Of a stretch of DNA of 38,500 nt, positions 7,319 through 38,202 are shown piece by piece. The notes under the pieces were generated by a model. The model ran no database searches, was not told the origin of the DNA, and saw nothing but the letters and a program-made list of their open reading frames with translations. The position numbers and the translations under genes were made by a program. Each line of letters opens with the position of its first letter. Positions within the stretch are counted from its first letter, which is position 1. The stretch comes from Methylovirgula sp. Its GTDB lineage: Bacteria > Pseudomonadota > Alphaproteobacteria > Rhizobiales > Beijerinckiaceae. The stretch is from positions 1-38,500 of the forward strand of contig JARLIV010000022.1 in NCBI GenBank assembly GCA_031291555.1. The letters are read 5' to 3'.

Positions 7319-7441
7319 CTTTCCATTATATCCGCCTGCGATCACAAAGGCGACAGTCACCTTTCGGCCTGCTTTGCGCTAGCCTAGATGAGTCGACTGA
7401 GATCAAAGCGCTTATTGCGCCCCGACCTCATGGAGGTAAGC

Positions 7442-8227
7442 ATGACGCTCAAGACACGCAATGCCATCGTGACCGGCTCGACGAGCGGCATCGGCCTCGC
7501 CATTGCGCGGGCTTTTGCCGAGCAAGGCGCCAATGTTCTCATCAACGGCTTCGGCGAGGCGGATGCGATCGAGGCCGAGCGCAGCAAGATCGAGAAGGAT
7601 TTCGGCGTCAAAAGCGTCTACTCCGCCGCCGACTTGACCAAGCCGGATCAAATCCGCGCCATGGTGAGCGAAGCCGAGACAGCCTTCGGCAGCGTCGACA
7701 TTCTCGTCAACAATGCCGGCATCCAGCATGTCGATCCGATCGAGAAGTTTCCGCCGGAGATGTGGGACAAGATCATCGCGCTTAATCTCTCTGCCGCCTT
7801 TCACGCGATAGCCGCGGTCATCCCGGGCATGAAGGCGCGCAAATGGGGGCGCATCATCTCCACGGCCTCCGCCCATTCCAAGGTCGCCTCGCCATTCAAA
7901 TCAGCTTATGTCTCGGCCAAGCACGGTATCGACGGGCTCACCAAGACCGCGGCGCTGGAACTCGCCACGTTCGGTGTCACCGTCAATTGCATTTCGCCCG
8001 GCTATGTCTGGACGCCGCTCGTCGAAAAGCAGATCCCCGATACGATGAAGGCGCGCAACCTGACCCGCGAGCAGGTGATTCACGACGTGCTGCTCGCGGC
8101 GCAGCCGACGAAGGAATTCGTCACCGTGGATCAGGTGGCGGCGCTCGCCCTCTTCCTCTGCACCGATGCGGCGAGCCAGATCACCGGCGCCAATCTCTCG
8201 ATCGACGGCGGCTGGACTGCCGCATAG
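7442..8227 (+). CDS. bdhA: 3-hydroxybutyrate dehydrogenase (SDR)
   Basis: TGSTSGIGLAIA, NNAGIQHVDPIEKFPPEMWDKIIALNLSAAFH, YVSAKHGIDGLTKTAALE, CISPGYVWTPLVEKQI. Confidence 0.88.
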   Translation: MTLKTRNAIVTGSTSGIGLAIARAFAEQGANVLINGFGEADAIEAERSKIEKDFGVKSVYSAADLTKPDQIRAMVSEAETAFGSVDILVNNAGIQHVDPIEKFPPEMWDKIIALNLSAAFHAIAAVIPGMKARKWGRIISTASAHSKVASPFKSAYVSAKHGIDGLTKTAALELATFGVTVNCISPGYVWTPLVEKQIPDTMKARNLTREQVIHDVLLAAQPTKEFVTVDQVAALALFLCTDAASQITGANLSIDGGWTAA

Positions 8228-8244
8228 CAGAGGAGCCGCCGCGG

Positions 8245-9261
8245 ATGACGAACCGCAAGAGCGTCAACCTCGCGCTGCAGGGCGGCGGCTCGCACGGCGC
8301 CTTCACTTGGGGCGTGCTGGATTATCTACTTGAGGACGGCCGCCTCGACATCGCGGCGGTCAGCGGCACCAGCGCGGGGGCGATGAATGCCGTCGTCCTC
8401 GCCCAAGGCTGGCTCGAAAATGGCCGTGACGGCGCTCGCGAAAAGCTCGGGCAGTTCTGGCGCTCGATCTCGACTGAGAATGCGCTGTCACCGGCGCAGA
8501 GCCGGTTCTTCGATCTCTTCTTCGGCCCACGCACGCTCGGCGGCCAATTCTCGTCCTTGTGGAGCGATCTTTTCACCCGCCTCACCAGCCCCTATCAATT
8601 CAATCCATTTGATTTCAATCCGTTGCTTGACCATCTCGAAGATGCCGTCGATTTCGAGAAGGTGCGCGCCTTCGACGGCTTCAAGCTTTTCGTCGCAGCG
8701 ACTAATGTGCGCACTGGCAAGATCCAGGTCTTCAAGGGCGCGGAGTTGACAGCCGACCACGTCATGGCTTCGGCCTGCCTGCCAACGCTCTTCCGCGCCG
8801 TCGAAATCGACGGCGAGCCCTATTGGGATGGCGGCTACATGGGCAATCCGGCGATCTTTCCGTTCTTCTATGAGAGCAGCTGCACCGACATCGTCATCGT
8901 CCAGATCAATCCGATCGAGCGGCATACGGTGCCGTACAGCGCGCGCGACATTCAAAACCGGCTGGACGAGATCACGTTCAATGGGGCCTTGATGGGCGAA
9001 TTGCGCGCCATCGATTTCGTTGTGCGCCTGATCGATGCCGGCAAGCTCTCCATAGACGATTATATGCGCCCGCTCGTCCACCGTATCGACGGCGGCGATC
9101 TTCTGCGCCCTTACGACGCCGCGACCAAGCTCGATGCAAGCTGGCCGCTCGTCAGCAACTTTTTCGAATTCGGCCGCAAGGCAGGCAAGCATTGGCTCGA
9201 TGAAACCTACGATTTCATCGGCCGGGAGAGCACGCTCGACCTGCGCATGGCCTATTCGTGA
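8245..9261 (+). CDS. patatin-like phospholipase
   Basis: LALQGGGSHGAFTWGVLD, GTSAGAMNA (GxSxG), DGGYMGNPAIFPF. Confidence 0.92.
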   Translation: MTNRKSVNLALQGGGSHGAFTWGVLDYLLEDGRLDIAAVSGTSAGAMNAVVLAQGWLENGRDGAREKLGQFWRSISTENALSPAQSRFFDLFFGPRTLGGQFSSLWSDLFTRLTSPYQFNPFDFNPLLDHLEDAVDFEKVRAFDGFKLFVAATNVRTGKIQVFKGAELTADHVMASACLPTLFRAVEIDGEPYWDGGYMGNPAIFPFFYESSCTDIVIVQINPIERHTVPYSARDIQNRLDEITFNGALMGELRAIDFVVRLIDAGKLSIDDYMRPLVHRIDGGDLLRPYDAATKLDASWPLVSNFFEFGRKAGKHWLDETYDFIGRESTLDLRMAYS

Positions 9262-9593
9262 GCGGGCCGGCGACGTCGGGGGATCATGCCGTCGTGCTCA
9301 CGGCCTGTGGCACTACCGCCGCAGGCAAGATCGCCGAAATGCTGGTCCGCGACCGGCTCGCGGCCTGCGTGCAGAAGCTGCCGGTCGAGAGCACATATCG
9401 CTGGAAGGGCGGGATCGAGACGGCGCAGGAAGTGCTTCTGCTCATCAAGATCAAAACCGCCGATTACGCTGCCGTGGAACAGGCGATCCGTGCGCTGCAC
9501 GATTACGAGATTCCGGAGATCATCGCGCTGCCAGTGGCGCAAGGCTTTGCCGGCTACCTGTCCTGGATCGACGAAGTCACGCGGCGGTCTTAA
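9258..9593 (+). CDS. cutA: divalent cation tolerance protein CutA
   Basis: DRLAACVQKLPVESTYRWKGGIETAQEVLLLIKI, HDYEIPEIIALPV, YLSWI; GTG start overlapping the patatin stop. Confidence 0.92.
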   Translation: MSGPATSGDHAVVLTACGTTAAGKIAEMLVRDRLAACVQKLPVESTYRWKGGIETAQEVLLLIKIKTADYAAVEQAIRALHDYEIPEIIALPVAQGFAGYLSWIDEVTRRS

Positions 9594-19261: not shown

Positions 19262-19368
19262 GTCATGGCCGGGCTTGTCCCGGCCATCCACGCCGGGACC
19301 TCGCTGTGGCGATCGCAATGTAGCGGTGGTGTCATCGCGTGGATGCCCGGCACAAGGCCGGGCATGAC
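19262..19368. repeat. Inverted pair of REP-like GTCATGGCCGGGCTTGTCCCGGCCATCCACG elements
   Basis: 19262-19292 gtcatggccgggcttgtcccggccatccacg; 19338-19368 cgtggatgcccggcacaaggccgggcatgac in opposite orientation. Confidence 0.75.
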
Positions 19369-19466
19369 AGTGGAGAGAACGGTGCCAAGACTGCGCATGC
19401 CGTTCTTACTGATGGCACGGACTCTTGTTGGCCGTCATCCTTGTACGAACTCGCAAAACCACGCTT

Positions 19467-19533
19467 CGCCGATCCATTGACCGCGCGACAATTTGCAAGG
19501 CATAACACGCGCATTGCAGCGCCGGTTCTGCGC
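19467..19533. repeat. Imperfect direct repeat, copy B (partner 19152-19215)
   Basis: See copy A. Confidence 0.7.
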
Positions 19534-19547
19534 CCGCTGCACGAGAC

Positions 19548-19580
19548 AAGGCCGCCGCGCATCGCGACGGCCTTTTGTTT
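19548..19580 (+). terminator. Terminator/attenuator-like hairpin upstream of terminase
   Basis: AAGGCCG-C-CGCG-CAT-CGCG-A-CGGCCTT followed by TTGTTTT. Confidence 0.6.
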
Positions 19581-19632
19581 TGCCGCGGCTCAGCCGCATG
19601 CTTCCCTGAAGGAAGTTTCCAAAGGAACCCCG

Positions 19633-20934
19633 ATGCCGTCATTCAGCCCGGGGCAGGAGGCGGCGCGCCGTCTCCTCGAAGGGCCGCAACGCTATACATG
19701 CCTTGCCGGCGGCACGCGCTCGGGCAAGACCTTTCTCATCACCCGCGCCATCCTCGCCCGCGCGTTGAAGGCGCCGGGTTCGCGCCACGCCATTCTGCGG
19801 TTTCATGCCAATGCCGCGCGCGCCTCGATCGCGCTCGACACCTTGCCGAACGTCGCGCGGCTCTGCTTTCCGAAACTCAAGCTGCGGCACGCGCGTCAGG
19901 ACGGTTTCTTCGAACTGCCGAATAAGTCGCGCATCTGGATCGGCGGTCTCGATGACAAGGAGCGGGTCGAGAAAATCCTCGGCCTCGAATATGTCAGCAT
20001 CTTCCTCAACGAGGCTTCGCAGATTCCTTATGCCTCCGCGCTCGTCGCCTTCACCCGGCTGGCGCAGAAGGTCGATGGCCTGAAGCAGCGCGCCTATGTC
20101 GATCTGAACCCGGTCGCAAAATCGCATTGGACAAATCTGCTTTTCGGCGAGAAGCGCGATCCGGTCTCGATGCAGAAGCTGAAAGATCCGAAGAATTACG
20201 CGCGCTCCTTTCTCAACCCTGTCGATAATACCGGAAACCTTGCACCGGAATTTCTGGAGAGCCTCGCCAATCTGCCGGAACGCCAGCGCAAGCGCTTCTA
20301 CGAAGGCGTCTATGTGGACGAGGTCGAAGCGGCGCTCTGGACCTATGAGATCATCGAGGCCGCGCGTTGCGCGCCGGGGGATATTCCCGAGGTCGCCCGC
20401 GCCAGCGTCGTCGTTGCGCTCGACCCGTCGGGCGCGGCGGGACGCGACGATCTCGGCGCCGACGAGATCGGCCTCATCGTCGCCGCGCGCGGGACGGATG
20501 GCGATTGCTACATCCTTGCTGATCGTTCCTGCCGCGAAGCGCCCGCCGTCTGGGGCCGCCGCGCCGTGACGGCGTTTCACGAATTCCGCGCCGATTGCAT
20601 CGTCGCCGAGTCGAACTTCGGCGGCGAGATGGTGCGCGCGACGATCCAGGCGGCCGACCCCAATGTGCCGGTGCGTCTCGTCACGGCGAGCCGCGGCAAA
20701 GCCGTGCGCGCCGAGCCGATCTCGGTGCGCTACGCGCAGCGTCAGGTGCATCACGCCGGGCGCTTTCCCAAGCTTGAGGATCAGCTCTGCGCCTTCACTG
20801 CTGCAGGCTTTAGCGGCCCCGGTAGCCCCGACCACGCCGACGCGGCGATCTGGGCGCTCACCTATCTTTTCGAACTCACCGACGGCACCGGCATCATCGA
20901 GTTCTACCGGCGCGAAGCCGATGCGCGAAAGTAG
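19633..20934 (+). CDS. phage terminase large subunit
   Basis: YTCLAGGTRSGKTFLITRAILARAL (Walker A), KILGLEYVSIFLNEASQIPY (Walker B), VVVALDPSGAAGRDDLGADEIGLIVAARG (nuclease). The ATG at 19633 is preferred over the track start at 19339. Confidence 0.93.
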   Translation: MPSFSPGQEAARRLLEGPQRYTCLAGGTRSGKTFLITRAILARALKAPGSRHAILRFHANAARASIALDTLPNVARLCFPKLKLRHARQDGFFELPNKSRIWIGGLDDKERVEKILGLEYVSIFLNEASQIPYASALVAFTRLAQKVDGLKQRAYVDLNPVAKSHWTNLLFGEKRDPVSMQKLKDPKNYARSFLNPVDNTGNLAPEFLESLANLPERQRKRFYEGVYVDEVEAALWTYEIIEAARCAPGDIPEVARASVVVALDPSGAAGRDDLGADEIGLIVAARGTDGDCYILADRSCREAPAVWGRRAVTAFHEFRADCIVAESNFGGEMVRATIQAADPNVPVRLVTASRGKAVRAEPISVRYAQRQVHHAGRFPKLEDQLCAFTAAGFSGPGSPDHADAAIWALTYLFELTDGTGIIEFYRREADARK

Positions 20935-21009: not shown

Positions 21010-22698
21010 ATGTTCATGATTCAACGCGGCGAAGGTCAGCCGAGCTGGCCGCTCAGTCCCTATGAAGTGAGCGTGAGCTATGGCCAGGCCGGCGCGGCGG
21101 GGCAGGGGGCGGATTGGTTCGGCCCGCTCGCGCCCATCACGCCGCTGGCGCCACCGGAGGTCGCAGGCCGGCAGTGGGATTATCCCTCGGGCTATAATCT
21201 CGCGACCACGCCGCGCATCTACGAGCCGATCTCCTTCCATACCTTGCGCGGACTCGCCGAAGGCTATGATCTGCTGCGCCTCGTGATCGAGACGCGCAAG
21301 GATCAGGTCGCACGTCTTGTCTGGACCATCGGCCCGCGCAGCAAGCAACCGGGCGCCGATCCGCGTATCGCGGCGCTGCGCCAGTTCTTCGCCCGGCCGG
21401 ACGGGCTGCACACGTTCGGCGATTGGCTGCGGCTGCTGCTCGAAGAATTATTCGTCATCGACGCGCCGGCGCTCTATCTGCAACGCGACCGCGCCGGCCG
21501 CCTCGCCGCGCTGCTGCCGCTCGACGGCGCGACGATCAAGCCGGTGATCGACGATTGGGGCCGTACGCCGCAGCCCTATGTCGAGAATGGCGCGATGGTC
21601 TATCCCGTCGCCTATCAGCAGGTGCTGAAGGGCTATCCCGCCGTCGATTACTCCTTGCGCGACATCATCTACCGGCCGCGCAACATTCGCGTCAATCGCG
21701 CCTATGGCTTCGGCCCGGTCGAGCAGATCGTTACCAGCGTCAACATCGCTTTGCGGCGGCAGATGTATCTGCTCGACTATTTCACCCAAGGGAACATTCC
21801 CGACTCCCTCATCGGCGTGCCGGAGAACTGGACGCCGGACCAGATCGCCTCATACCAGAAATATTGGGACGCTTATTTCGACGGCGCTCTCGGCCGCCGC
21901 CGTCGGGCCAAGTTCGTTCCCGGCGGCGTCGCCAAGACGTTCATCCAGACCAAGGAGCCGGACCTCAAAGGCCCGTTCGATGAATGGCTGGCGCGCATCG
22001 TCTGTTTCGCCTTCTCGATCTCGCCGCAGGGCCTGACTCAGCAGATGAACCGCGCCACGGCGGAGACGCAAAAGGAGATCGCGGAAGAAGAGGGCCTCGC
22101 GCCTATTCTCGCTTGGGTGAAGGATCTGATCGACCAGATCATCGCGCAGGAATTTGACGCGCCCGATCTCGAATTCACTTGGAGCGCCGAGCCCTCGATC
22201 GATCCGCAGGCGCAGGAGGCGATCCTTTCGAGCTATGCGACGAAGGGCATCATCACGATCAACGAGGCGCGCGCCGCGCTGGGCCGCGATCCCTTTCCCA
22301 ATGCCGCCGCCAACACGCCGATGACGCTAACGGGCGGGGGATATGTGGGGCTGGGGGAGGCCACCACCGTCATCTCAAAGTCGTCCGTTCCATCGAAGGT
22401 TGATAAATCGACGAGCTGGGACGAAGATCAACATCCGCGCTGGCCTTCTGGGTCTGGCGATCATCAGGGCGGAGGTTTTGCGCCGAAGGATGAAGAGCAG
22501 GCTACCTCGTCGGAGAAAACTGCGCTTATCGACGACGATGGGTGCGATGAGGAGTGGAGAAGTGCTCTCCAATATTGTGAAGAACTCTTAGATTTGCATC
22601 CATTTCATCCCGATCGCGCGAAACTCGGTGGACATAAAACTCTCGATGGCTGCGCGAAGGGGTTTGTAAGCGCACGTTGCGGAGGAAATCCGGTCTGA
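21010..22698 (+). CDS. phage portal protein with C-terminal extension: RWPxG linker plus Cys-containing putative toxin domain
   Basis: Portal core LRLVIETRKDQVARLVWTI, LFVIDAPALYLQRDRAGRLAALLPLDGATIKPVIDDWGRTP, PQGLTQQMNRATAETQKEIAEEEGL, then DEDQHPRWPSGSGDHQGGGFAPKD..CDEEWRSALQYCEELL..HKTLDGCAKGFVSARCGGNPV. Confidence 0.9.
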   Translation: MFMIQRGEGQPSWPLSPYEVSVSYGQAGAAGQGADWFGPLAPITPLAPPEVAGRQWDYPSGYNLATTPRIYEPISFHTLRGLAEGYDLLRLVIETRKDQVARLVWTIGPRSKQPGADPRIAALRQFFARPDGLHTFGDWLRLLLEELFVIDAPALYLQRDRAGRLAALLPLDGATIKPVIDDWGRTPQPYVENGAMVYPVAYQQVLKGYPAVDYSLRDIIYRPRNIRVNRAYGFGPVEQIVTSVNIALRRQMYLLDYFTQGNIPDSLIGVPENWTPDQIASYQKYWDAYFDGALGRRRRAKFVPGGVAKTFIQTKEPDLKGPFDEWLARIVCFAFSISPQGLTQQMNRATAETQKEIAEEEGLAPILAWVKDLIDQIIAQEFDAPDLEFTWSAEPSIDPQAQEAILSSYATKGIITINEARAALGRDPFPNAAANTPMTLTGGGYVGLGEATTVISKSSVPSKVDKSTSWDEDQHPRWPSGSGDHQGGGFAPKDEEQATSSEKTALIDDDGCDEEWRSALQYCEELLDLHPFHPDRAKLGGHKTLDGCAKGFVSARCGGNPV

Positions 22699-23305: not shown

Positions 23306-23395
23306 TCTTGAATCTCGCAAAACGAGTGCTCTCCAATCTTGACGCCAGCATCGTCAAGCCCGATGAATCGCCCGGGCAAAGCGCGGAGCAGGGCG

Positions 23396-24802
23396 ATGTC
23401 GTATCGGGCGGCGTATCTTCGCATCGGGGCCGCGCTGCTCTTTGCAACACTTTTAAGTCCATCGGCCCGCGCCGACGAGGCGCCCCCAATCGCTCCCGAC
23501 AAGCCGGCGCCCTTCGTGACGCCCTCGCGCGTTTCAGCAACGATCGAGTTCGGCATTCCTGCGCTCGCGCGCGCGGTCGAGCGCGATGTGCCGCATCGCT
23601 TGGCGACCTTTGATGAGCGCATCCAGTGCGTTCACCGGCGTGTTCTTTTCTTCCGCGTCCGGGCCAATTGCGACATCGAAGGCTATGTCGAGCGCACCGG
23701 CCCGATTTCGCTTTACGGTCGCGGTGACGCCATTATCGGTTCGACGCCGATCTACGGGGCGGTGAGCGGACAGGGCGCGAATAGGTTCACGCGGCGCATT
23801 CACGGCGAGGCCGAGGCCGGCGTTACGGTCGAGGCGGAGGCGCGGCCGATGCTGCGGCACGATTGGTCGCTTGATCTTCGCCTGAGCGACAGCTTTCATT
23901 GGACCGAGCCGCCGGTGCTTCATGTGCTCGGCCGCAATATTCAGCTCGCCCGCTATGTCGAGCCGCGCATCCGCGAGCAACTCGCCCGCGTGCGCGTGCG
24001 CGCCGCTGAGGCCGTGCGCCGCCTTGATCTGCACGGCAAGGCGGAGACCGCCTGGCACCATGCCTTTACGCCGATCGAGCTTTCGGACAATCCGCCGGTT
24101 TGGCTGCAGCTCAACCCGCAAAGCGCCGCCTTCGCCGGCGTGCGCGCGGATCGCCGCGTACTTTGGGGCGTGCTTGAGATCGAGGGGAATGCTGCGACCT
24201 CTGTCGGCGCCGCGCCGGCGCCGGTCGCTGCCACGCCTTTGCCGCCGCTCGGTCGCGATATCGCGGCGCCGGGCAAGTTCGAAGTCATCCTGCCGGTGAA
24301 TGTCGGCTACGATTTCCTGAGCCAAAAGGTCAAGGAAGTCGCCGCCGCGCAGTTGAATGGCGATGTCGCGTTGCGCGACGTGAAGACCTATCCGTCGAAC
24401 GGAAAACTCATCGTCGGGTTGAAACTCGCGAAAAAGACCGACACGGCGCCCGACGCCGGCACCTGGCTTTATCTCACGGCGACGCCGCAGGTCGATCCCG
24501 AGACGCAGACCCTGCGTCTGCCGGACCTTGCGGCCCTCGCCGCGAAAGCCGATGCAGCCGTGCAGGCGAGCGGCGACGCCGATCTCGCCGATCGGCTGCG
24601 GCAGGCGAAAATCCTCTATCAAGAGGCCTATCAACGGCTGCTCGCGGCCGCGAACAAGAATCTGACGCGGCCCTTGAAGAACGGCTTCCGCATGGAGGGC
24701 CATCTCGACTCGGCCAAGCTCGATCATGTCGCACTGTTGCAGGATGGCGTCAGCATTGCGCTGCGCATGAGCGGCGATCTCAAGATTCTCTACGGCCTGT
24801 GA
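23396..24802 (+). CDS. DUF4403-like exported protein
   Basis: Signal-like MSYRAAYLRIGAALLFATLLSPSARA; paired beta/lipocalin-like repeats SATIEFGIPALARAVER..; LYLTATPQVDPETQTLRLPDL; MSGDLKILYG C-term. Confidence 0.65.
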   Translation: MSYRAAYLRIGAALLFATLLSPSARADEAPPIAPDKPAPFVTPSRVSATIEFGIPALARAVERDVPHRLATFDERIQCVHRRVLFFRVRANCDIEGYVERTGPISLYGRGDAIIGSTPIYGAVSGQGANRFTRRIHGEAEAGVTVEAEARPMLRHDWSLDLRLSDSFHWTEPPVLHVLGRNIQLARYVEPRIREQLARVRVRAAEAVRRLDLHGKAETAWHHAFTPIELSDNPPVWLQLNPQSAAFAGVRADRRVLWGVLEIEGNAATSVGAAPAPVAATPLPPLGRDIAAPGKFEVILPVNVGYDFLSQKVKEVAAAQLNGDVALRDVKTYPSNGKLIVGLKLAKKTDTAPDAGTWLYLTATPQVDPETQTLRLPDLAALAAKADAAVQASGDADLADRLRQAKILYQEAYQRLLAAANKNLTRPLKNGFRMEGHLDSAKLDHVALLQDGVSIALRMSGDLKILYGL

Positions 24803-25956
24803 CGATGCGTTTCGCCTGGCTGCTGGCTCTCGTCTCTCTTGCGGCTCCGGCCGCCGCGCAGACCGCGTTTTACGATGCGCCGCGCATCGATGCGATCGGC
24901 AAGCCCGGCACGCTCGTACGCGCAGAGCAGATGGAGGGCGCGCCGCTCAATGCCGCCGCCTATCGCGTGCTTTATCGCTCGACGAGTTTCGACGGCAGGC
25001 CGATCCTCGTCTCCGGCGTCGTCATCGTGCCGCAGGGCGCGCTGCCGCCGGGTGGCCGGCCGATCGTCGCTTGGGCGCATCCGACATCAGGCATCGTGCC
25101 GCGTTGCGCGCCCTCGCTCGCGCTCTTTTTCTTCCAGCAGGTGCAGGGCCTGCGCACGATGGTGCGGGACGGCTATGTCGTCGCTGCGACGGATTATCCC
25201 GGCCTCGGCACGCCGGGGCCGCATCCCTATCTCGTCGGCCTCAGCGAGGCGCGCGCCGTCATCGACAGCGTGCGCGTCGCGCGTAGCCTGCCGGGGGCAG
25301 GCGGCGCCAATCGCTTCATCGTTTGGGGCCATTCGCAAGGCGGCCACGCTGCGCTCTTCACCGGCCTCATCGCGAAGAGTTATGCGCCGGAACTGACGCT
25401 GCTCGGCGTCGCCGCTGCGGCGCCCGCGAGCGAGCTTGCGGATTTGATGGACGACGATCTTTCAACACCTGCGGGCAAGAACATCACCGCGATGACGCTG
25501 TGGAGCTGGCAGCGCGTCTATGGCGCGCCGATGGACAAGGTCGTCGATCCGCGCGCCATGCCGGCGATCGACAAGCTCGCGAAGGAATGTATCGAAGGGC
25601 CGTGGGATCTTTCCGCGCGTCAGCGGACCGAGAAGCCGCTGGAGCAGCACTTTCTGACCGTCGCGCGGCCCGCCGATGCCGAACCCTGGGGGTCGCTGCT
25701 CGCCAAGAACACGCCCGGCCCGTTGCCGCGTGACATTCCGGTGTTTCTCGCGCAGGGGCTTGACGATGCGGTCATCCGGCCCGCGGTGACGCAGGATTAT
25801 TTCGACAGACTCTGCGAGAGCGGGAGCAAGGTGCGGCTTTTCCTGATGCCGGGGGTCGGCCACGGCGCCGCGGCGATGAAGAGCGCACTCGAAGCCATCG
25901 CCTGGATGAGCGCCCGGTTTGCCGGCGAGACGCCGCCGAGTGATTGCGGGAAATAG
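24799..25956 (+). CDS. secreted lipase family alpha/beta hydrolase
   Basis: Signal peptide MRFAWLLALVSLAAPAAAQ; FIVWGHSQGGHAALFTG nucleophile elbow; VFLAQGLDDAVIRP; LMPGVGHG; start overlaps the DUF4403 stop. Confidence 0.85.
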   Translation: MTMRFAWLLALVSLAAPAAAQTAFYDAPRIDAIGKPGTLVRAEQMEGAPLNAAAYRVLYRSTSFDGRPILVSGVVIVPQGALPPGGRPIVAWAHPTSGIVPRCAPSLALFFFQQVQGLRTMVRDGYVVAATDYPGLGTPGPHPYLVGLSEARAVIDSVRVARSLPGAGGANRFIVWGHSQGGHAALFTGLIAKSYAPELTLLGVAAAAPASELADLMDDDLSTPAGKNITAMTLWSWQRVYGAPMDKVVDPRAMPAIDKLAKECIEGPWDLSARQRTEKPLEQHFLTVARPADAEPWGSLLAKNTPGPLPRDIPVFLAQGLDDAVIRPAVTQDYFDRLCESGSKVRLFLMPGVGHGAAAMKSALEAIAWMSARFAGETPPSDCGK

Positions 25957-26085
25957 GCACATCTTCATGCCGCTCGTGTCCGCCTGTCGGCGGCGCGAGG
26001 GCTTTGAGCGACACCGCTAGTTGAATCGCCTCGGCGCTGCGAACGCGCCTCCATAATCTCGTCTCATTATCCGTAGGATTTTTGC

Positions 26086-27269
26086 ATGCAGGCTCGAGCC
26101 GCCGGCGCGGTGTCCGTGCGCCTGCTGGAGCAACCGCGCACGCTTGTCGCAAGCGGCGAAGCGGTTTGGATCTGGCCGGGCATCGCACTCACGACGCGAC
26201 GTGGCGTCGAAATTGTGCCCGTCACGGACGCGACAATCCGCTTCTGGGTTTCGAGGCCGCACGGGCCGGAGGCGCTCGACAGAAATCTTACCCGCGCCGT
26301 TGCGCGCGCCGCACAGTGTCTCACGGCGGGGAACGAGACCGGCGCGCAGTGGGCGATCGATGCGCTCCAGCTGACAGAGTTCTCGCAGGACGGTGCATTG
26401 TTGGCCTGCGCAATTGCCGACGACTTTGCGTTCCGAAGCCGAACCTACGTACGCGCGCAACTCCGCGCACATGGAATGCGCGGGACATCGCGTTACATTT
26501 GCCGATCTTCAAGCTCCATGCCGAAGCGGCGGGGGCTTTGGCAAAGGGCGTCATCCCTTTCGATCCGCAAAAACATCCGCGCTGGCCAGCCGGTGCGGAG
26601 GATAGCCAGGGCGGTCAGTTTGCGCCCGTCGGCGGCGAGTCGGATGCTTCTGTCATTCCCGCGGCTGTCCGCCGGCCGAAGCGGCCAAAGAGACTACCAC
26701 CGTCTGGTTTGAAGGAGCATCTATCGGAGCCGCCGAGAGGAATCGGAGACAACAGTGGCAAGTTTCCAGAGCCGGATATTCCGCAAGAAGAGCCACCACC
26801 TGAAGTGCGATATGGAGTCGTCACCGAGATCGGGCAAGCGTTGCAAGAAGCCCTCACGGCAGGCGCCCTGCTATGGGTTCAAAATACGCTCGGGGGATTG
26901 GCAACGATTTGGTGGATGAAACAGGCAGCTACGAATTATTATTATCAGCTCTTGGCGAATCTCGATCCGCCCAAGACGCTGCAGGAATTGCAAGATGCCG
27001 TCAAAAGGCCGACCTTGGGCTATCATGTTCATCACATCGTCGAATGGGAGTCGGGCCTGGCGGACGGGATTACGCAGGACCGGATCGAGAGTTCTGATAA
27101 CTTGGTCGAAATTCCAGAAATGAAGCATCGGGAAATTTCAGATTGGTATCAGACTCCGAATAAGGAATTTGGGGGCTTGTCACCGCGTGATTATCTTAGG
27201 GGCAAAGGTTGGGAAGAACGATACGATCTCGGCATCCAGAAACTTAAAGATTTTGGGATCCTCAAATGA
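26086..27269 (+). pseudogene. Frameshifted (or two-frame) structural protein with C-terminal HVHHIVE nuclease-like toxin domain
   Basis: Frame of 26086: MQARAAGAVSVRLLEQPRTLVASGEAVWIWPGIALTT..RSRTYVRAQLRAHG; protein-like sequence continues in the -1 frame from about 26472: TWNARDIALHLPIFKLHAEAAGALAKGVIPFDPQKHPRWPAGAEDSQGGQFAPVG..LGYHVHHIVEWESG..DNLVEIPEMKHREISDWYQTPNKEFGGLSPRDYLRGKGWEER. Confidence 0.75.
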
Positions 27270-27637
27270 TCGAACAAAAACTCCTCGATACCTTGACGAT
27301 CGATGAATTGATCATGGCATTTGAGGAAGTTTGCCTCGCGCAAGACACGGAGTTGCGTAACGCGCGTCTTCACAAGAAGCCTGAACTCGTTCACCAGCTG
27401 TTCGCGATTGGCAAGGAACTGAAAAGTCGCGGCCGCGAAGCGCGCCTTGCACTGACGAGCCTTTATGACCATCCGAACATGCATGTGAGATTGAAGGCGG
27501 CGAGATACACGCTTGTTGTTGCGCCTCTCCCGTCGCGCCAGATATTGGAAAAGATAGCCAACTTCGGGCATATGCCGCAAGCGGCGGAAGCGCGCGAAAC
27601 GCTGCGCCACATCGACGAGGGTACGTTTCGGGATTAA
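27266..27637 (+). CDS. DUF2019-like putative immunity protein
   Basis: ATGA overlap with the toxin stop; MIEQKLLDTLTIDELIMAFEEVCLAQDTELRNARLHKKPELVHQLFAIGKELKSRG, HPNMHVRLKAARYTLVVAP. Confidence 0.75.
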   Translation: MIEQKLLDTLTIDELIMAFEEVCLAQDTELRNARLHKKPELVHQLFAIGKELKSRGREARLALTSLYDHPNMHVRLKAARYTLVVAPLPSRQILEKIANFGHMPQAAEARETLRHIDEGTFRD

Positions 27638-28991: not shown

Positions 28992-30509
28992 ATGACCAGT
29001 GCAGTCAAAGTTCAGGATTTGCTTGCCAACATCAAGGCCGCGCAGCAGCGCCCGTTGGGCGATCCGCGGCTCGAAGGCCTGATCGGCCTCGAGAAAAGCA
29101 CGTTCACTGAGAATGCGAGCGCCACCTCGGGCCTCACTTTCTATGATCTCGAAGTCGGCGCCAAGCTGCTCTATCCAGTGCTGACCCCGCTGCGCAATGC
29201 GATCCCGCGCGTCTCCGGTAAGGGCGGTATTCAGGCGAATTGGCGCGCCATCACCGCGATCAATACCTCCGGCCTGCGCTTCGGCGTCTCGGCCGCCAAT
29301 CGCGGCGGCGCGCTCGCGGTCGCGACGCAGGATTACACCGCGACCTATAAGGGCATCGGCGTCGAGACCAGCGTCGATTTCGAGGCGCAATATGCCGGCC
29401 AGGGTTTCGACGACATCCGCGCCATCGCCGCGAAGACGGGCCTCGAAGCCTTGATGCTTGGCGAGGAGGCGATGATCCTTGGCGGCAACGGTTCGACGCT
29501 GCTCGGGACCACGCCGACGCCGACGCTCGTCGCATCTTCGGCCGGCGGCACGCTCGCGAGCCAGACGCTCTCCGTCGTCGCTGTCGCGCTAACGCTCGAC
29601 GGCGTGATGAACGGCTCGGTCGCCGGCGGCATCCAGGCCTCGATCACGCGGACGAATGCGGATGGCACGTCGGATACGTTCGGCGGCGGCGCGGCGAAGC
29701 AGTCGGCGAGTGCCACTGTTTCCGTCACCGGCCCGGACGGCAGCGTTGCCGCATCGATCAGCCCGGTGAAAGGCGCGCTCGGCTATGCCTGGTTCTGGGG
29801 CGCTGCGGGTTCGGAAGTGCTCGGCGCGATCACGTCGATCAATTCGCTCGTCATTACCGCGGCGGCGGCGGGCGCGCAGACCGCGGCTTCGCTCGGCGCG
29901 AGCGACAATTCGGTCAATGCTTTGGCTTTCGACGGGCTCATCTCCCAGGCCGTCAAGACGGGCTCCGGCGCCTATGTCGCGATCCAGCCGACGGGTACGG
30001 CCGGCGCCGGCACGCCGCTGACGGCGGATGGTTCCGGCGGTGTCGTCGAGATCGACGCGGCGCTGAAGTCCTTGTGGGACAATTATCGGCTCTCGCCCGA
30101 CACGATCTGGGTGTCCTCGCAGGAGGCGCTCAACATCTCCAAGAAAATCCTCACCGGTTCGACGGTCGCGGCGCAACGCTTCGTTTTCGAGGCGAGCCAG
30201 AACGCGATCGGCGGCGGCGTCATGGTGCGCACCTATCTCAACCGCTTCTCGATGCAAGGTGGCAGCAGCCTGGACATCAAGCTGCATCCCAATCTGCCGG
30301 CGGGCACGATCCTGCTGACGACGCAGGCGCTTCCCTATCCGCTCTCCGGCGTCGGCAATGTCATGCAGATCCGCACGCGGCAGGATTATTACCAGATCGA
30401 ATGGCCGCTGCGCTCGCGCAAATATGAATATGGCGTCTATGCGGACGAAGTGCTGCAGCACTATTTCCCGCCATCGCTCGCCGTCATCAGCAATATCGGC
30501 AACGGCTGA
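28992..30509 (+). CDS. major capsid protein (HK97-like) with internal insertion domain
   Basis: YPVLTPLRNAIPRVSGKGGIQANWRAIT, VDFEAQYAGQGFDDIRAIAAKTGLEALMLGEEAMILGGN, LWDNYRLSPDTIWVSSQEALNISKKIL, DYYQIEWPLRSRKYEYGVYADEVLQHYFPPSLAVI. Confidence 0.88.
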   Translation: MTSAVKVQDLLANIKAAQQRPLGDPRLEGLIGLEKSTFTENASATSGLTFYDLEVGAKLLYPVLTPLRNAIPRVSGKGGIQANWRAITAINTSGLRFGVSAANRGGALAVATQDYTATYKGIGVETSVDFEAQYAGQGFDDIRAIAAKTGLEALMLGEEAMILGGNGSTLLGTTPTPTLVASSAGGTLASQTLSVVAVALTLDGVMNGSVAGGIQASITRTNADGTSDTFGGGAAKQSASATVSVTGPDGSVAASISPVKGALGYAWFWGAAGSEVLGAITSINSLVITAAAAGAQTAASLGASDNSVNALAFDGLISQAVKTGSGAYVAIQPTGTAGAGTPLTADGSGGVVEIDAALKSLWDNYRLSPDTIWVSSQEALNISKKILTGSTVAAQRFVFEASQNAIGGGVMVRTYLNRFSMQGGSSLDIKLHPNLPAGTILLTTQALPYPLSGVGNVMQIRTRQDYYQIEWPLRSRKYEYGVYADEVLQHYFPPSLAVISNIGNG

Positions 30510-31038: not shown

Positions 31039-31866
31039 ATGTCCTCTCCTTTCGATCTCGTCAGTCTCGCCGATCTCAAGACCTGGCTCGATCTTGCGAG
31101 CACCGATGATGATGCACTGCTCGGACGGCTCATCACGCAAGTGAGCCGCGCGACGCTCGCGTTTCTCGATCGCGGGAATATTCTGCCTTCGCGTATCGTC
31201 GAAACGCGGGACGGGCGCAACGACACCGAGATTGTCTTGCGACAATGGCCGGTGACGTCGATTGCCGCGCTGACTATCGACGGCATTCCGATCGCGCCCG
31301 CGCCGCCGCTGGTTGCGGGCGGTCCGCATCGGAGCGGCTATCTGCTCGAGACGGCGGAAAATGCGCCGCCGGGCCACATGCAGCGGCTTGCCTTGCGCGG
31401 CCGTCTGCTCACGGCCGGCGTGCAGAATATTTGCGTGACTTATACCGCCGGCTATCAGGTTTCGGCCGAGCCGGCCGTGGTGCCCGCAGTCGCGCCCTAT
31501 GAAGTGCTGGCGCAGGAGCCTTACGGCGATTGGGCCAACGATCGTGGAATCGTCTATGCCAATGGCACGCCGCTGACGGCTGTCGTATCGGCACCCGGCG
31601 CGGGGCAATATACGATCGCCGACGGCCTCTACACATTCTCCGCAACGGATGCCGGCGCTGGAGTCTTGCTCAGCTACGGCTATGTGCCGGCCGATCTTTG
31701 CTTCGCCGCAATGGACTGGATCGCCGAGCTTTATAATTACCGCAGCCGCATCGGCCAGCAGTCGAAATCGCTCGGCGGCCAGGAGACGACGTCCTTCATC
31801 GTCAAGAACGTGCCGGATTTCGTTGCCGCCGCTCTGCAGCCCTATCGCCGGGTGATCCTGCCATGA
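31039..31866 (+). CDS. head-tail connector (gp6-like) with inserted beta module
   Basis: LVSLADLKTWLDLASTDDDALLGRLITQVSRATLAFLDRGNI, RNDTEIVLRQWPVTSIAALTIDG; C-term CFAAMDWIAELYNYRSRIGQQSKSLGGQETTSF. Confidence 0.82.
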   Translation: MSSPFDLVSLADLKTWLDLASTDDDALLGRLITQVSRATLAFLDRGNILPSRIVETRDGRNDTEIVLRQWPVTSIAALTIDGIPIAPAPPLVAGGPHRSGYLLETAENAPPGHMQRLALRGRLLTAGVQNICVTYTAGYQVSAEPAVVPAVAPYEVLAQEPYGDWANDRGIVYANGTPLTAVVSAPGAGQYTIADGLYTFSATDAGAGVLLSYGYVPADLCFAAMDWIAELYNYRSRIGQQSKSLGGQETTSFIVKNVPDFVAAALQPYRRVILP

Positions 31867-32312: not shown

Positions 32313-32749
32313 CCACCTCACGCGACTCCGCGATAGTGGCGCTCGTGCGCCTCGTTGCGTCGGCCTATGCCTGGAAGAGCGGCCCGGTGCGCAAGCTGAA
32401 ACTCTGGAGCGATGTGCCGGCCGCGGCGCGGCCCGCCTGTTTCGTTTTCGAGGGCGGCCTCGAATCCTACGCCTGGAGCGAAGGCGCGGTGCCGAAGCGC
32501 GTCATCGAGCCCAAGCTCTTCATCTATCTCAGCGCCAGAGGCGATACGCCCGGCGCGTCTTTGCTCAATGGCGTGATGGACGCGCTCGACCAGGCCTTCG
32601 CGCTCTCCGGCGCCGATCTCGGCCTTGGACGCAATACGCTCTCCGGCGCGGCCTATAGCTGCCGTATCGACGGCAAGGTGCTGAAAGACCCCGGCGACCT
32701 CGACGGTGATGCGCTTCTTGTCGTGCCGGTCAGGATCGTGCTCGCCTAG
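32309..32749 (+). CDS. DUF3168-like tail terminator/completion protein
   Basis: LKLWSDVPAAARPACFVFEGGLESYAW, LFIYLSARGDT, VMDALDQAF; position and size; ATGA overlap. Confidence 0.65.
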   Translation: MTTSRDSAIVALVRLVASAYAWKSGPVRKLKLWSDVPAAARPACFVFEGGLESYAWSEGAVPKRVIEPKLFIYLSARGDTPGASLLNGVMDALDQAFALSGADLGLGRNTLSGAAYSCRIDGKVLKDPGDLDGDALLVVPVRIVLA

Positions 32750-32771
32750 CCAATCAACGAAAGGATCACCC

Positions 32772-33509
32772 ATGTATAGTTTCGGCTCGGGCGTGCTCAT
32801 CGGCACGCGCAGCGATATTGCCAATGCGACGCCGCTCAACTTCGGCCTCGTTCAGGAAGTCACGATTGATGAATCGGCGGGCGTGAAGGAGCTTTACGGC
32901 CAATATCAGCGCCCGATCGCCATCGCCCGCGGCACGATCAAGACGACGGGCAAGGCCAAGGTCGCGCGCATCTCCGGCCTCGCCTTCGCCAATCTCTATT
33001 ATGGCGTCACGCCCGTGGCCGGGCAGGTCGCGACCTCGTTCGCCGAGGCCGCCGCCGTGCCGGCCACGAGCCCCTATACGCTGAGCGTCGCCAATGCGGC
33101 GAATTTCGTCGCCGATGCCGGCGTGCTCTATGCGGCGAGCGGCCTGCCGTTGACCAAAGTCGCGTCGAGTCCCACCGTTGGCGAATATAGCGATGCCGCC
33201 GGCGTTTATACGTTTGCCGCCGCCGACGAGGGCAAGGCGGTGCTCATCACCTATACTTATACGATCGCGAGCACGGGCCAGAAATTCACCATCGCCAATC
33301 AGCTCGTCGGCACGACGCCGACTTTCCAGGCCCTGTTCTACACGACCTTTCAGAATCAGGCGGTGACTTTGCAACTCAACAATTGCACGTCGAGCAAATT
33401 GAGCTTCGGCACCAAGCTTGAGGATTTCGTCATTCCGGAATTCGATTTCTCCTGCTTCGCCGATGCGGGCGGCAATGTGATGACCTGGTCCTTCGCGGAG
33501 GCCTCGTAA
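32772..33509 (+). CDS. major tail tube protein
   Basis: SFGSGVLIGTRSDIANATPLNFGLVQEVTIDESAGVKELYGQYQRPIAIARGTIKTTGKAKVARI; true ATG likely 32772. Confidence 0.78.
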   Translation: MYSFGSGVLIGTRSDIANATPLNFGLVQEVTIDESAGVKELYGQYQRPIAIARGTIKTTGKAKVARISGLAFANLYYGVTPVAGQVATSFAEAAAVPATSPYTLSVANAANFVADAGVLYAASGLPLTKVASSPTVGEYSDAAGVYTFAAADEGKAVLITYTYTIASTGQKFTIANQLVGTTPTFQALFYTTFQNQAVTLQLNNCTSSKLSFGTKLEDFVIPEFDFSCFADAGGNVMTWSFAEAS

Positions 33510-34080: not shown

Positions 34081-35327
34081 GTGACGACGTCACGATCACA
34101 TTCAGCGCCGATATCTCCGACCTGCAACGCGGGATGCAGCAGGCCTCGGCGGCAATCGATACGACGACGAGCGCCTTGCGCAGCGGCGCCTCGCAGCTCG
34201 GGGGAACTTTCTCGTCGCTGTCGCAAGCCTATGCGCAGAGCGCCGCGCAGGCGGCGCAGACGAGCCGCGACGCCAGCGAGACGCAGCTTGCTATCGCGCG
34301 CGCGCAGGCGAACGCCCAATACCAGATCGCGCTCGATGGCGTCAGAATGCAGGAGGCGCTCGTCAAGGAGCAGGCGCAGACCTCGCAAATGAGCCATGAG
34401 CAGCAATTGCAAAGCCTGCTCGCGCTCGAGGCTCAGCGCGAGGCGCTCGAGCGCCAGCATTTGCAGGCGGTGCAGGCGACCTATGCGCAGGATTCGGACG
34501 CCTATCTGCGCTTGCAGCAGCGGCTCGAAGAAGTCGAGGCTGAGGGTGCGTTGCGCCGCGAGCAGATCGAGCTGAACTATAATCGCGAAATCTATGCCGA
34601 TTATCGGCGGACCTTCGATCAGATCGGCTCCAGCGTCTCCACCGCGATCATGGGCATGATCGAGAGGCACGAAACGCTGCGCCAGGCCGCGCAGAAAGTG
34701 TTGCTCGCAATTATACAGGATTTCATCCAAGCGCGCGTCCGCACGGTGGCCGATTGGCTGGCTGGCGTCGCCACCGAGACCACGGCGACGCAGATCGGCC
34801 AGGCCGCGCAGACGGCTGCCGTGACGTCCGGCGTTGCGGCGCGCACATCGATGGAGCAGGCTGGCGCCGCCGCCGGGCTCGCCGCCAATGCCGCATCAAT
34901 GATCCGGCAGATATTGGCCTCGGCGCGGGAGACATTCGCGGGTGTCTTCGGGTTTCTCGCGCCGGTTTTGGGGCCGGCCGCGGCAGGCCCGGCGGCGGCC
35001 GCAGAGGGCGCGGTGGCGGCAGCCGCAAGTTTCGCCGTCGGCTCCTGGGAGTTGCCGTCGGATATGCTGGCCAATGTTCATCGCGGCGAGATGATCGTGC
35101 CGGCCGGCGCGACGCCTTGGGCGCAAGGTGTGCTGGCGAGCGCGGCCACTGGCGGCGCGGGTGGCGTGACCGTCAATCATGCGACGCATTTCAATATCAG
35201 CGCGCTCGATTCGCAGGATGTGAAGCGCTGGTTCAAGAACAATAGCAAGCTAATGCTGCGCACGATCAATGAGGCCGTGCGCCATGGCTCGCATCTCGGG
35301 CTCGACAGGCTGCGCAGCCCTGTATGA
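34077..35327 (+). CDS. tail tape measure protein
   Basis: Coiled-coil Gln/Ala-rich middle; C-term SWELPSDMLANVHRGEMIVPAGATPWAQG, VNHATHFNISALDSQDVKRWFKNNSK. Confidence 0.82.
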   Translation: MSDDVTITFSADISDLQRGMQQASAAIDTTTSALRSGASQLGGTFSSLSQAYAQSAAQAAQTSRDASETQLAIARAQANAQYQIALDGVRMQEALVKEQAQTSQMSHEQQLQSLLALEAQREALERQHLQAVQATYAQDSDAYLRLQQRLEEVEAEGALRREQIELNYNREIYADYRRTFDQIGSSVSTAIMGMIERHETLRQAAQKVLLAIIQDFIQARVRTVADWLAGVATETTATQIGQAAQTAAVTSGVAARTSMEQAGAAAGLAANAASMIRQILASARETFAGVFGFLAPVLGPAAAGPAAAAEGAVAAAASFAVGSWELPSDMLANVHRGEMIVPAGATPWAQGVLASAATGGAGGVTVNHATHFNISALDSQDVKRWFKNNSKLMLRTINEAVRHGSHLGLDRLRSPV

Positions 35328-37594
35328 CTGGCTACATCTGCGGCGTGAACCTCCTGCCTTCGACGGGGGAGTTCACCTATGACACGATCGCCTATCTCGG
35401 CCAGCGCGCGACGGAGACTTCGCTCGTTTCAATCAATCGCTATGCGAATGGCGGCCCGCTGGCGGGCATCGGCAGCAAGACGGATTATTCCGTCGCGGTC
35501 GACAATCTGCAGGCGGAAGCGCCGGGCTGCACGACCGTTGCAATTGTCGCGGCCTGGTTCGGTTCTTCGACGGATGTGACAGCCTGCAAAATCTATCCCT
35601 CGACGACCTATATCAACGGCACGTTCCAGCAGGCCGGGGGTGGCGTGGATCATTGGCGTTGCTCCGGCCTGACGCAATCGTCCTCCGGTCTCATCGCCAT
35701 TCCACAGGTGAGCGGCAGCTTCATCTATGGCGGCACACCGTCCGACCAGTCGATCGTCCGCTGTTTTCAAGACTTGAAGGCGCGGGGATTTCGCACCGTC
35801 TTCTACCCTTTCGTGCTGATGACCGATGCGAATGAATCCTGGCGCGGGGAGATCACCTATTTAGGCGACGACATTTCGAGCGCGGCGACGGCGGCGATCA
35901 ATGCCTTTTTGGGTTCGGCGGCGGCTTCGCAGTTCACGCGCGACACGACGAACCTGACCGTCGCTTATTCCGGTCCGGCGACCGACTTCACCTATCGGCG
36001 GATGATCCTGCATTACGCCAACCTCTGCGTCGTCGCGGGTGGCGTCGATCTCTTTCTGCTCGGCTCGGAATTGCGCGGCCTGGAGATAGTGCGCGGCCCC
36101 GCCTGGACGAAAGCGGGCACGACAGGCGGCGACGGGAAGGTGACATGGGATTATCCCTTCGTCGCCGGGCTGATGCAATTGGCGGACGATGTTCGCGGCA
36201 TTTTCGACGCGGCAGGTCTCACGAAAGATGCGGCGGGTCCGCACAATCTCATCACCTATTCGGCCGATTGGTCGGACTGGATGGGCGTGCAGCATGCGGG
36301 CGAGAACGGCCAGTGGCCGCATCTCGACCAGCTCTATGCACACGAGAATATCGATCTCGTCTGCTTCGATAATTATCTGCCGCTGTCGGATTGGACGACG
36401 GGTGGCGGCGGGCTCGATGCGCTCTATTGGAACGCGCCCCTGCCGACCGTGTGGCCGCCGAGCACGACAGAGATGAACGGGCTCGGGCTTTCCGGTTCGC
36501 CGACGCTCTACAGCCTCGATTATCTCAAAGCGAATATCGAGGGCGGCGAGAAATTCAACTGGTATTATAGCGACGGCACGAATGCCGGCATCGGGCTCGA
36601 TCCAAATGGCACTGACCTTCGCGTTTCGTTGCCGCAGGGAGACCGGCTCACGCAGAGCCGCAATCCCTATGCCGCCGACCAGCAATTGCTGGCGAACAAG
36701 CAATTGCGCTGGTGGTGGAACAATCCGCATCAGGCGATCTATGATGCGGGTGACGGCAATGGCTGGGTACCGCACGGTCCTAATACGGAATGGGTGCCGC
36801 AATCGAAATCCATCACCTTCGCGGAATATGGATGTCCGGCGGCGGATCGCTGCACCAACCAGCCAAATGTCTTCTATAATCCCGCTGCCGCGGCCAGCGC
36901 GACGCCCTATTGGTCGATCTGGGATCGGGGCGCCGCCGGCGGATATGTGCCGCGCCGCGACGACGAGATTCAATTGCTCGCGCTGGAAGCCATCTATGAA
37001 TATTGGGTAACGGACGGCCATAACGCGACATCGGCGGCCGGCGTCAAGATGATCGAGCCGGCCTTCATGTCCGCGTGGAATTGGGACGCGCGGCCGTTCC
37101 CGACCTATCCGCAGCGAACGGACGTCTGGGGCGACGCAGGCAATTGGCCCTCGGGTCTCTGGCTCGACGGCAAAGGTCCGTTCCTCGTGCCGCCAGTGCC
37201 GGACGCGCCGCCTGCACCTTCGCTCTCCGCCACCTTTCCTATGCTGAGCGGGCAGGGCTGGTCGATCCATTATCGCCCGGCGTTCGCGACAGATGTCGCG
37301 GCGCATGTCTCGGGGCGTGAAAGCCGCGCCGCGAAAATTTCCGTGCCCCTGTGGGAGATCGAGTTGAGCTTCGATCTCTTGCGCGCGGATATTGCAGCCG
37401 ATCTGCAGATGATCGCTGGCTTCTTCGGTTCAATGGCCGGGCAGTCTGGGGCGTTCACCTTTCCAGTGCCGCCAGAGCTCGGCCTGGGGGCCACATTCGC
37501 GTGCCGCTTCGCTGACGATGTTCAAGACCCCGAAGAATTCATGCGCCAGCTCCATACCCTGCAATCGCTCAAACTCCGGACGGTGAAGCAGTGA
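35324..37594 (+). CDS. GTA TIM-barrel-like protein fused to a C-terminal DUF2460-like domain
   Basis: RGFRTVFYPFVLM, YRRMILHYANLCVVAGGVDLFLLGSELRGL, ITYSADWSDWMG, IDLVCFDNYLPLSDW, WVPQSKSITFAEYGCPAADRCTNQPNVF; C-term FPMLSGQGWSIHYRPAFATDVAAHVSGRESRAAKI. Confidence 0.9.
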   Translation: MTGYICGVNLLPSTGEFTYDTIAYLGQRATETSLVSINRYANGGPLAGIGSKTDYSVAVDNLQAEAPGCTTVAIVAAWFGSSTDVTACKIYPSTTYINGTFQQAGGGVDHWRCSGLTQSSSGLIAIPQVSGSFIYGGTPSDQSIVRCFQDLKARGFRTVFYPFVLMTDANESWRGEITYLGDDISSAATAAINAFLGSAAASQFTRDTTNLTVAYSGPATDFTYRRMILHYANLCVVAGGVDLFLLGSELRGLEIVRGPAWTKAGTTGGDGKVTWDYPFVAGLMQLADDVRGIFDAAGLTKDAAGPHNLITYSADWSDWMGVQHAGENGQWPHLDQLYAHENIDLVCFDNYLPLSDWTTGGGGLDALYWNAPLPTVWPPSTTEMNGLGLSGSPTLYSLDYLKANIEGGEKFNWYYSDGTNAGIGLDPNGTDLRVSLPQGDRLTQSRNPYAADQQLLANKQLRWWWNNPHQAIYDAGDGNGWVPHGPNTEWVPQSKSITFAEYGCPAADRCTNQPNVFYNPAAAASATPYWSIWDRGAAGGYVPRRDDEIQLLALEAIYEYWVTDGHNATSAAGVKMIEPAFMSAWNWDARPFPTYPQRTDVWGDAGNWPSGLWLDGKGPFLVPPVPDAPPAPSLSATFPMLSGQGWSIHYRPAFATDVAAHVSGRESRAAKISVPLWEIELSFDLLRADIAADLQMIAGFFGSMAGQSGAFTFPVPPELGLGATFACRFADDVQDPEEFMRQLHTLQSLKLRTVKQ

Positions 37595-38202
37595 CCGCGC
37601 CGCCGTCATTTCCCGCGCTCGCGGGTCAGGGCTGGTCGGTCCACAAGCGACCGACATTTTCAACGCGCGTCGCCTCGCATGTCTCCGGTCGCGAAGTGCG
37701 CAGCCCGCTCTTCGCCGCGACGCTCTATGAGTTCGAACTGACCTATGACGGGCTTGCGTCCAACGCCGCCTTTCCCGGTCTCGGCACGAATTCCCTGCAA
37801 AGCCTGATGGGCCTCTACCTCCAATGCGAAGGCCAATACGGCACCTTCCTCTATACCGATCCCAGCGATTGCATGGCGGCGGGGCAGGTGATCGCGGCGG
37901 GCGACGGCATGACGATAAGCTTCACTTTCCTGCGTGCGCTCGGCGGTCTCATCGAGCCGGTGTCTTGGGTTTCCACGGTCGCGAATGTTTATCTGAACGG
38001 CATCGCGCAAAGTTCGGGCTGGGCGCTCAGCCAGCCGAACACGCTGACGTTTGCTGCCGCGCCAGCGAGCGGCACCGTGATCAGCGCGGATTTCACCTAC
38101 GCCTTTCAATGCCGCTTTCTCGACGATCAGGAAGATTTCGAGAATTTCATGAGCGGTCTTTGGCAAGTTCAATCGCTGAAATTCCGGAGTGTGAAGCCGT
38201 GA
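37591..38202 (+). CDS. DUF2460 (TIGR02217-like, GTA gp12-like) distal tail protein
   Basis: FPALAGQGWSVHKRPTFSTRVASHVSGREVRSPLFAATLYEFELTYDGL; VYLNGIAQSSGWAL..FQCRFLDDQEDFENFMSGLWQVQSLKFRSVKP. Confidence 0.88.
   Translation: MTAPPSFPALAGQGWSVHKRPTFSTRVASHVSGREVRSPLFAATLYEFELTYDGLASNAAFPGLGTNSLQSLMGLYLQCEGQYGTFLYTDPSDCMAAGQVIAAGDGMTISFTFLRALGGLIEPVSWVSTVANVYLNGIAQSSGWALSQPNTLTFAAAPASGTVISADFTYAFQCRFLDDQEDFENFMSGLWQVQSLKFRSVKP

Follow-up and report, generated by a model that had tools for sequence, protein, structure and literature searches.

The DNA analysed here (the window) is a stretch of 38,500 nucleotides from a Methylovirgula sp. genome (GenBank assembly GCA_031291555.1, contig JARLIV010000022.1). 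It is one complete contig (C259) of a draft metagenome-assembled genome (MAG) of 278 contigs. Its downstream end carries four consecutive tail genes, which encode a short tape measure protein (TMP), a protein (P0001) that joins a TIM barrel to a distal tail protein (Dit) domain that we call DitA, a free Dit (P0002, hereafter DitB) and the start of the hub (Table 1). The TMP gene and the start of P0001 overlap by 4 bp, as do P0001 and DitB, the GTG start codon of the latter lying inside the P0001 stop. The TIM barrel is that of the megatron, the giant baseplate protein of the Rhodobacter capsulatus gene transfer agent (RcGTA) and related phages, and our analysis indicates that the megatron gene has been split in this phage lineage, with the barrel now anchored on a Dit paralogue. 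A first-pass annotation of the window had placed a TIM-barrel protein between the TMP gene and a DUF2460 gene, as its coordinates bear out. It had also noted that the C terminus of this protein resembles the next gene product, and the two align with 41-42% identity (E = 2.6e-16), far beyond chance.

The N-terminal part of P0001 matches the GTA_TIM family (PF13547; residues 222-596, E = 1e-100) over positions 1-299 of the 299-position profile, a full-length match that places it among the 'peripheral' domains of megatrons. A family profile built from P0001 and 55 relatives (56 rows) matched residues 221-766 of the RcGTA megatron (E = 1.7e-103) and the megatron of roseophage R4C (E = 1e-90), and blastp aligned P0001 residues 1-617 with phage megatron residues ~218-777. 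Foldseek comparison of the AlphaFold2 model of P0001 with the Protein Data Bank returned the R4C megatron (8gtc_M) as the best match, followed by glycoside hydrolase family 113 (GH113) mannanases (E ~1e-5).

The C-terminal part of P0001 carries a partial match to DUF2460 (PF09343; residues 638-713, E = 2.4e-11), and the free DitB carries the full-length family. DitA of the window keeps the Dit core and C-terminal end ('CRFADD..EEFM..LQSLKLRTVK') and is without the middle insertion domain of ~75 amino acids that is present in DitB. A profile of 47 DitA domains matched the solved Dits of R4C (8gtc_G, E = 4e-11) and RcGTA (6tba_6B, E = 7e-10), and the DitB family profile matched the same structures more strongly (E = 1.2e-53 and 7e-42, respectively); together with its full-length DUF2460 match, this identifies DitB as a distal tail protein. 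The AlphaFold2 model of the DitA domain (predicted local distance difference test score (pLDDT) of 86) found mainly Dit and tail-tube proteins in Foldseek. Judged by these profiles, DitA is a homologue of the solved Dits that has kept the core fold. The domain search proposed in the first-pass annotation thus returned the two families that it expected in P0001 and the full DUF2460 in P0002, and both of its structural claims, a duplicated distal-tail domain and a DUF2460 fold in the C-terminal segment, stand on the matches to solved Dits.

The baseplate module continues on C229 (locus L132), another contig of this genome, which has an exact 119-bp overlap with the end of the window. It carries the remaining part of the hub gene (L132:4360-5040, minus strand) and, beyond it, an NlpC/P60-like peptidase, a 746-amino-acid megatron with no TIM (PF13550 and PF23666) and a protein with an Mtd_N domain. 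This order, from the TMP and TIM-DitA through DitB, hub, peptidase and TIM-less megatron to the Mtd_N protein, recurs in dozens of loci. The gp15-like gene that the first-pass annotation had proposed to look for beyond 38.5 kb is therefore present, and it has lost its TIM. We also noted an Mtd_N domain in the gene after the TIM-less megatron at L132:562-1659 (minus strand) and L065:14000-15484.

In alignments with phage megatrons, related TIM-less megatrons cover two stretches, approximately residues 50-210 and the part that begins at about residue 850. Because these parts flank a gap and P0001 covers residues 218-777, the alignments indicate that the megatron gene is split and that its peripheral domain now sits on a Dit paralogue; on this evidence the anchor was swapped, and the TIM was not added, nor was the megatron gene merely moved. 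The genome of the window encodes no megatron of RcGTA type, as the TIM is in P0001 and the central and fibre-binding domains are in the separate 746-amino-acid protein. Gain of a TIM by a phage whose megatron retains its own was considered and rejected, as the genome has a single TIM and its megatron has none. Excised from a giant baseplate protein and carried by an additional Dit, the barrel behaves, at the level of sequence, as a movable module. The TIM-less megatrons align only from megatron residue ~50-60 and so are without the N-terminal hydrophobic segment, which was formerly taken to form the iris. In a 2026 preprint the helices of the iris belong instead to the tape measure protein (PMC13420450), and the absence of the segment fits this reassignment.

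Table 1 Features of the baseplate locus and of the same prophage in the window
Feature	Coordinates	Strand	Evidence
Terminase large subunit, same prophage	19339..20934	+	PF17289 / PF04466
Portal protein, same prophage	21010..22698	+	PF04860, E 3e-18
Probable major capsid protein, same prophage	28992..30509	+	phrog_13692, E 1e-137 (function not stated there); position after head protease-like gene
Short TMP, 416 aa	34077..35327	+	phrog_2854 tail length tape measure protein, E 7e-8; open reading frame coordinates
P0001, TIM-DitA fusion, 756 aa	35324..37594	+	Pfam PF13547 and PF09343; AlphaFold2 model, mean pLDDT 82
Megatron 'peripheral' domain, GH113-like TIM barrel, residues 1-620	35324..37183	+	Profile, blastp, Foldseek
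Glu249 codon, candidate acid/base, end of strand read as beta-4	36068..36070	+	Conservation and alignment
Glu501 codon, candidate nucleophile, end of strand read as beta-7	36824..36826	+	Conservation and alignment
Pro-rich flexible linker, residues 616-633	37169..37222	+	pLDDT under 50
DitA, Dit/DUF2460 core without insertion domain, residues 638-756	37235..37591	+	PF09343; family profile to solved Dits; AlphaFold2 model
P0002 (DitB), 203 aa, full free Dit with insertion (OB-type) domain	37591..38202	+	PF09343, E 1e-39
Hub gene, 5' end, interrupted at contig end	38199..38500	+	PF09931, E 4e-11

To place the fusion in context, we surveyed its distribution. About 90 loci of viral or prophage origin have TIM-DitA together with a free Dit. 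In the initial scans of viral and genomic sequences, the fusion preceded a free Dit for 80 of the 87 TIM genes that were complete or nearly so, and a later scan added about eleven loci. At four distinct loci (L035/L081, L052, L058 and L082) the TIM is joined to a DitB-type Dit, which is the sole Dit there; a frameshifted locus from the later scan (L134) resembles these, for a total of about five. The named hosts of the fusion all belong to the Hyphomicrobiales (Methylocella, including Methylocella tundrae, Beijerinckia, Roseiarcus and Xanthobacteraceae MAGs). Of the 398 genomes sampled from the order of the window, 260 have a TIM. Among the matches listed, all but that of the window stop near P0001 residue 617, mostly in open reading frames of about 1300 amino acids, and the fusion was not found in any other genome of the samples from the order (398) and the phylum (399). 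All 40 matches listed among named phages likewise stop at residue 617, none extending past the TIM, and four such loci inspected in full have the order TMP-Dit-hub-peptidase-megatron(TIM). The fusion is thus the norm within its own clade, an extensive set of alphaproteobacterial phages that have not been cultured, and rare outside it, which settles in part the earlier question of whether it is already common in the family. We found no paper describing a TIM-Dit fusion in the literature on DUF2460 (judged by title and abstract) or on the megatron, TIM or a split. A stand-alone TIM gene outside a megatron was also seen in the same order (L128:6768-8912, 714 amino acids; PF13547 E = 1e-140), and sister genomes have similar frames of 734-789 amino acids.

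Phylogenetic analysis separated split-type TIMs as a single clade from 17 megatron-type TIMs (SH-aLRT 100). DitA and DitB domains fall on opposite sides of a branch (support 88/79), and by this tree they are separate paralogues, with longer branches and hence faster divergence on the DitA side. The Dit domains of the single-Dit loci form a clade inside DitB (100/90), so that the single-Dit state is probably derived. Core Dit residues are kept in both paralogues. The OB-type insertion domain, present in most DitA, is missing from DitA of the window and of about a dozen relatives, and was lost (or regained) several times (7 changes on the tree, at least 6). By contrast, every free DitB examined is full-length or longer, apart from those truncated at a contig end or interrupted by a frame break. 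In 39 of 65 loci the two genes share a 4-bp overlap, which favours their co-translation. Long extensions (461-727 amino acids) occur on the free DitB of L016, L030, L031 and L086, with a TIG domain in L030 and a frame that continues into the hub in L016; therefore DitB, too, gains added domains. At L087:9327-9992, DitB lies in two frames with an apparent frameshift.

The barrel may be an enzyme. All 56 rows of the family alignment have Glu at the positions of Glu249 and Glu501, and both RcGTA and R4C have an aligned Glu at each. In glycoside hydrolases of clan GH-A, the acid/base follows strand beta-4 and the nucleophile follows beta-7. The Glu pair of P0001 sits at these positions, with strand numbering according to our reading of the AlphaFold2 model. 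The GH113 beta-mannanases (3CIV, 5YLI and 4CD6) share both the TIM-barrel fold (Foldseek E about 1e-5, probability 1.0) and the Glu pair, but are only about 10% identical to P0001. P0001 scores slightly below the Pfam GH113 cut-off (26.5 against 27 bits), and some relatives score above it. We expect the barrel to serve as a sugar-binding or sugar-cutting arm. We give somewhat less than even odds to a barrel that is a structural spacer or a sugar-binding lectin: the GH113 match of P0001 is weak and the same domain of RcGTA has no known activity, the functions of the TIM, hub OB and Dit insertion domains being stated in the 2026 preprint to have remained unknown (PMC13420450). An invariant Glu pair, placed as in clan GH-A, argues against a non-catalytic role.

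Taken together, these data lead us to favour, with a probability of roughly 0.7, a split megatron with a Dit anchor, in which the barrel sits on DitA at the tail end and a TIM-less megatron is encoded downstream. On this reading, a prophage of an RcGTA-like siphophage lineage carries the peripheral, GH113-like barrel of the megatron as a separate protein, joined by a flexible linker to the N terminus of DitA, and the adhesin-like, central and fibre-binding parts remain in the TIM-less gene. DitA would be produced together with DitB, which retains the insertion domain often lost from DitA, and would join the tail tube at its end, in or beside the DitB ring. The barrel would then hang from the rim of the baseplate, a placement resembling that in RcGTA, and would probably bind or cut surface polysaccharide en route to the cell. 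In RcGTA, the Dit N terminus (Ala2), long loops and C terminus bind the hub and megatron (PMC7296036), so a TIM fused to the N terminus would face the baseplate side. A TIM in this position is probably tolerated in a ring-building Dit, because the TIM-DitB loci have no other Dit. The central domain of the R4C megatron, which follows the TIM, has Dit core topology (PMC10276861), and therefore a barrel is followed by a Dit-fold domain in both designs. The first-pass annotation had pictured a hydrolase-like barrel tethered to a Dit-like ring; the Dit-type domain is borne out by profiles and fold, and incorporation into the ring is part of the proposal made here.

Other arrangements of the two Dits are less probable. 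Three DitA and three DitB could alternate in one hexamer, a rather unlikely arrangement that would keep the three TIM copies of RcGTA and hard-code the switch from six-fold to three-fold symmetry. Odd and even Dit subunits of RcGTA adopt different loop conformations to match three-fold partners, their long loops touching the hub and megatron differently (PMC7296036); moreover, DitA and DitB are co-inherited, often translationally overlapping paralogues whose uneven retention of the insertion domain suggests distinct roles. A mixed ring is difficult to reconcile with the single TIM-DitB loci, which would require six TIMs per ring. The corresponding historical scenario, in which the duplication hard-wired the symmetry switch and three DitA took over the TIM arms given up by the megatron in an alternating hetero-hexamer, is if anything more doubtful. 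No likelier than the mixed ring are two stacked homohexamers, a DitA ring with six TIMs next to the tail tube and then a hub-binding DitB ring. Stacking would be colinear with the gene order (TMP, DitA, DitB, hub) and agrees with the core residues kept in both Dit domains, but it doubles the number of TIMs relative to RcGTA, and the TIM-DitB loci manage with one Dit. That DitA is a docking domain outside the DitB ring, and no ring subunit, is slightly less likely again: its frequent loss of the insertion domain and its faster divergence would agree with such a role, but its core Dit residues are conserved and in TIM-DitB the Dit that bears the TIM is without a second Dit. An artefact of assembly or gene calling that merged TIM and Dit (a chimeric contig or a frameshift), conceivable in a draft MAG of this kind, is effectively ruled out by recurrence of the fusion in intact frame in about 90 contigs, including those of Methylocella tundrae, Beijerinckia and Roseiarcus.

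Several points weigh against a split megatron with a Dit anchor. Incorporation of DitA into the ring is a prediction from sequence. Enzymatic activity of the RcGTA TIM has never been shown, and the 2026 preprint calls its function unknown (PMC13420450). Foldseek matches of the DitA model are weak (best E = 2.9e-3, TM scores of 0.3-0.4); none is below 1e-3, so that the Dit identity of DitA is carried by the sequence profiles. The branch between DitA and DitB is only moderately supported (121 columns), and the join of C259 to C229 relies on one exact overlap in a draft MAG.

The wider locus encodes terminase, portal and tail proteins and has close relatives within viral contigs, which suggests a prophage. 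Between the portal and head protease-like genes lie a DUF4403 and a secretory-lipase gene (window 23339-25956), apparently as cargo. They are followed by an open reading frame (26082-27637) with 'HHIVEWESG' in its C terminus, HNH- or toxin-like by eye, and a DUF2019 gene (E = 1e-22); these two genes of the head module are possibly a toxin-immunity pair. A common insert domain is suggested by matches to phrog_8234 in both the head-tail adaptor (31039-31866) and the putative tube protein of the tail (32706-33509).

The arrangement makes the role of the barrel accessible, as the TIM arm is detached onto a separate, short and easily deleted protein with its own anchor and can be probed without breaking the baseplate core. 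Two Dit paralogues, compared with the one Dit in two conformations of RcGTA, also provide a natural experiment on the junction between a six-fold tail and a three-fold baseplate.

Comparison with known systems shows how far the baseplate has been rearranged, as the first-pass annotation had proposed. RcGTA (6TBA/6TEH) shares with the window the TIM domain of its megatron (Rcc01698, gp15; residues 221-766), the Dit family (Rcc01695), the hub, peptidase and fibre-binding domains and the overall order. Its TIM is inside the megatron, whereas the window encodes its TIM apart from the megatron, joined to a second Dit, and the megatron that follows has no TIM; the N-terminal hydrophobic segment of RcGTA-type megatrons is absent from the TIM-less megatrons. 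The TIM had correctly been assigned to gp15, three genes after Dit, although it lies in the middle of that protein and not at the C terminus (peripheral domain, residues 230-744 of 1304; PMC7296036). Roseophage vB_DshS-R4C (8GTC) has homologous TIM, Dit, hub and peptidase, and its peripheral domain was predicted to be mannanase-like (PMC10276861), but it has one Dit gene and a 1447-amino-acid megatron with the TIM inside. Rhodobacter phage RcKvothe, Desulfofustis phage MD02 and Caudoviricetes MW202777 have the same gene set and a TIM 32-37% identical to that of P0001, but with the order TMP-Dit-hub-peptidase-megatron(TIM) and no fusion. Outside this group, the evolved Dits of lactococcal skunaviruses bear an extra carbohydrate-acting module that aids adsorption (PMC10688798). 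They resemble TIM-DitA as a Dit with an added module, for which carbohydrate action is predicted in the case of the TIM, but theirs is a carbohydrate-binding insert within the only Dit, in contrast to an N-terminal catalytic-type barrel on an extra paralogue. Gene 70 of Brevundimonas phage vB_BpoS-Strzyga, another N-terminal graft on Dit, also precedes a TIM-less megatron (L107:3381-5831 and 7218-9476); unlike the window, it has an N-terminal Gly-rich domain in place of a TIM, and a single Dit was detected.

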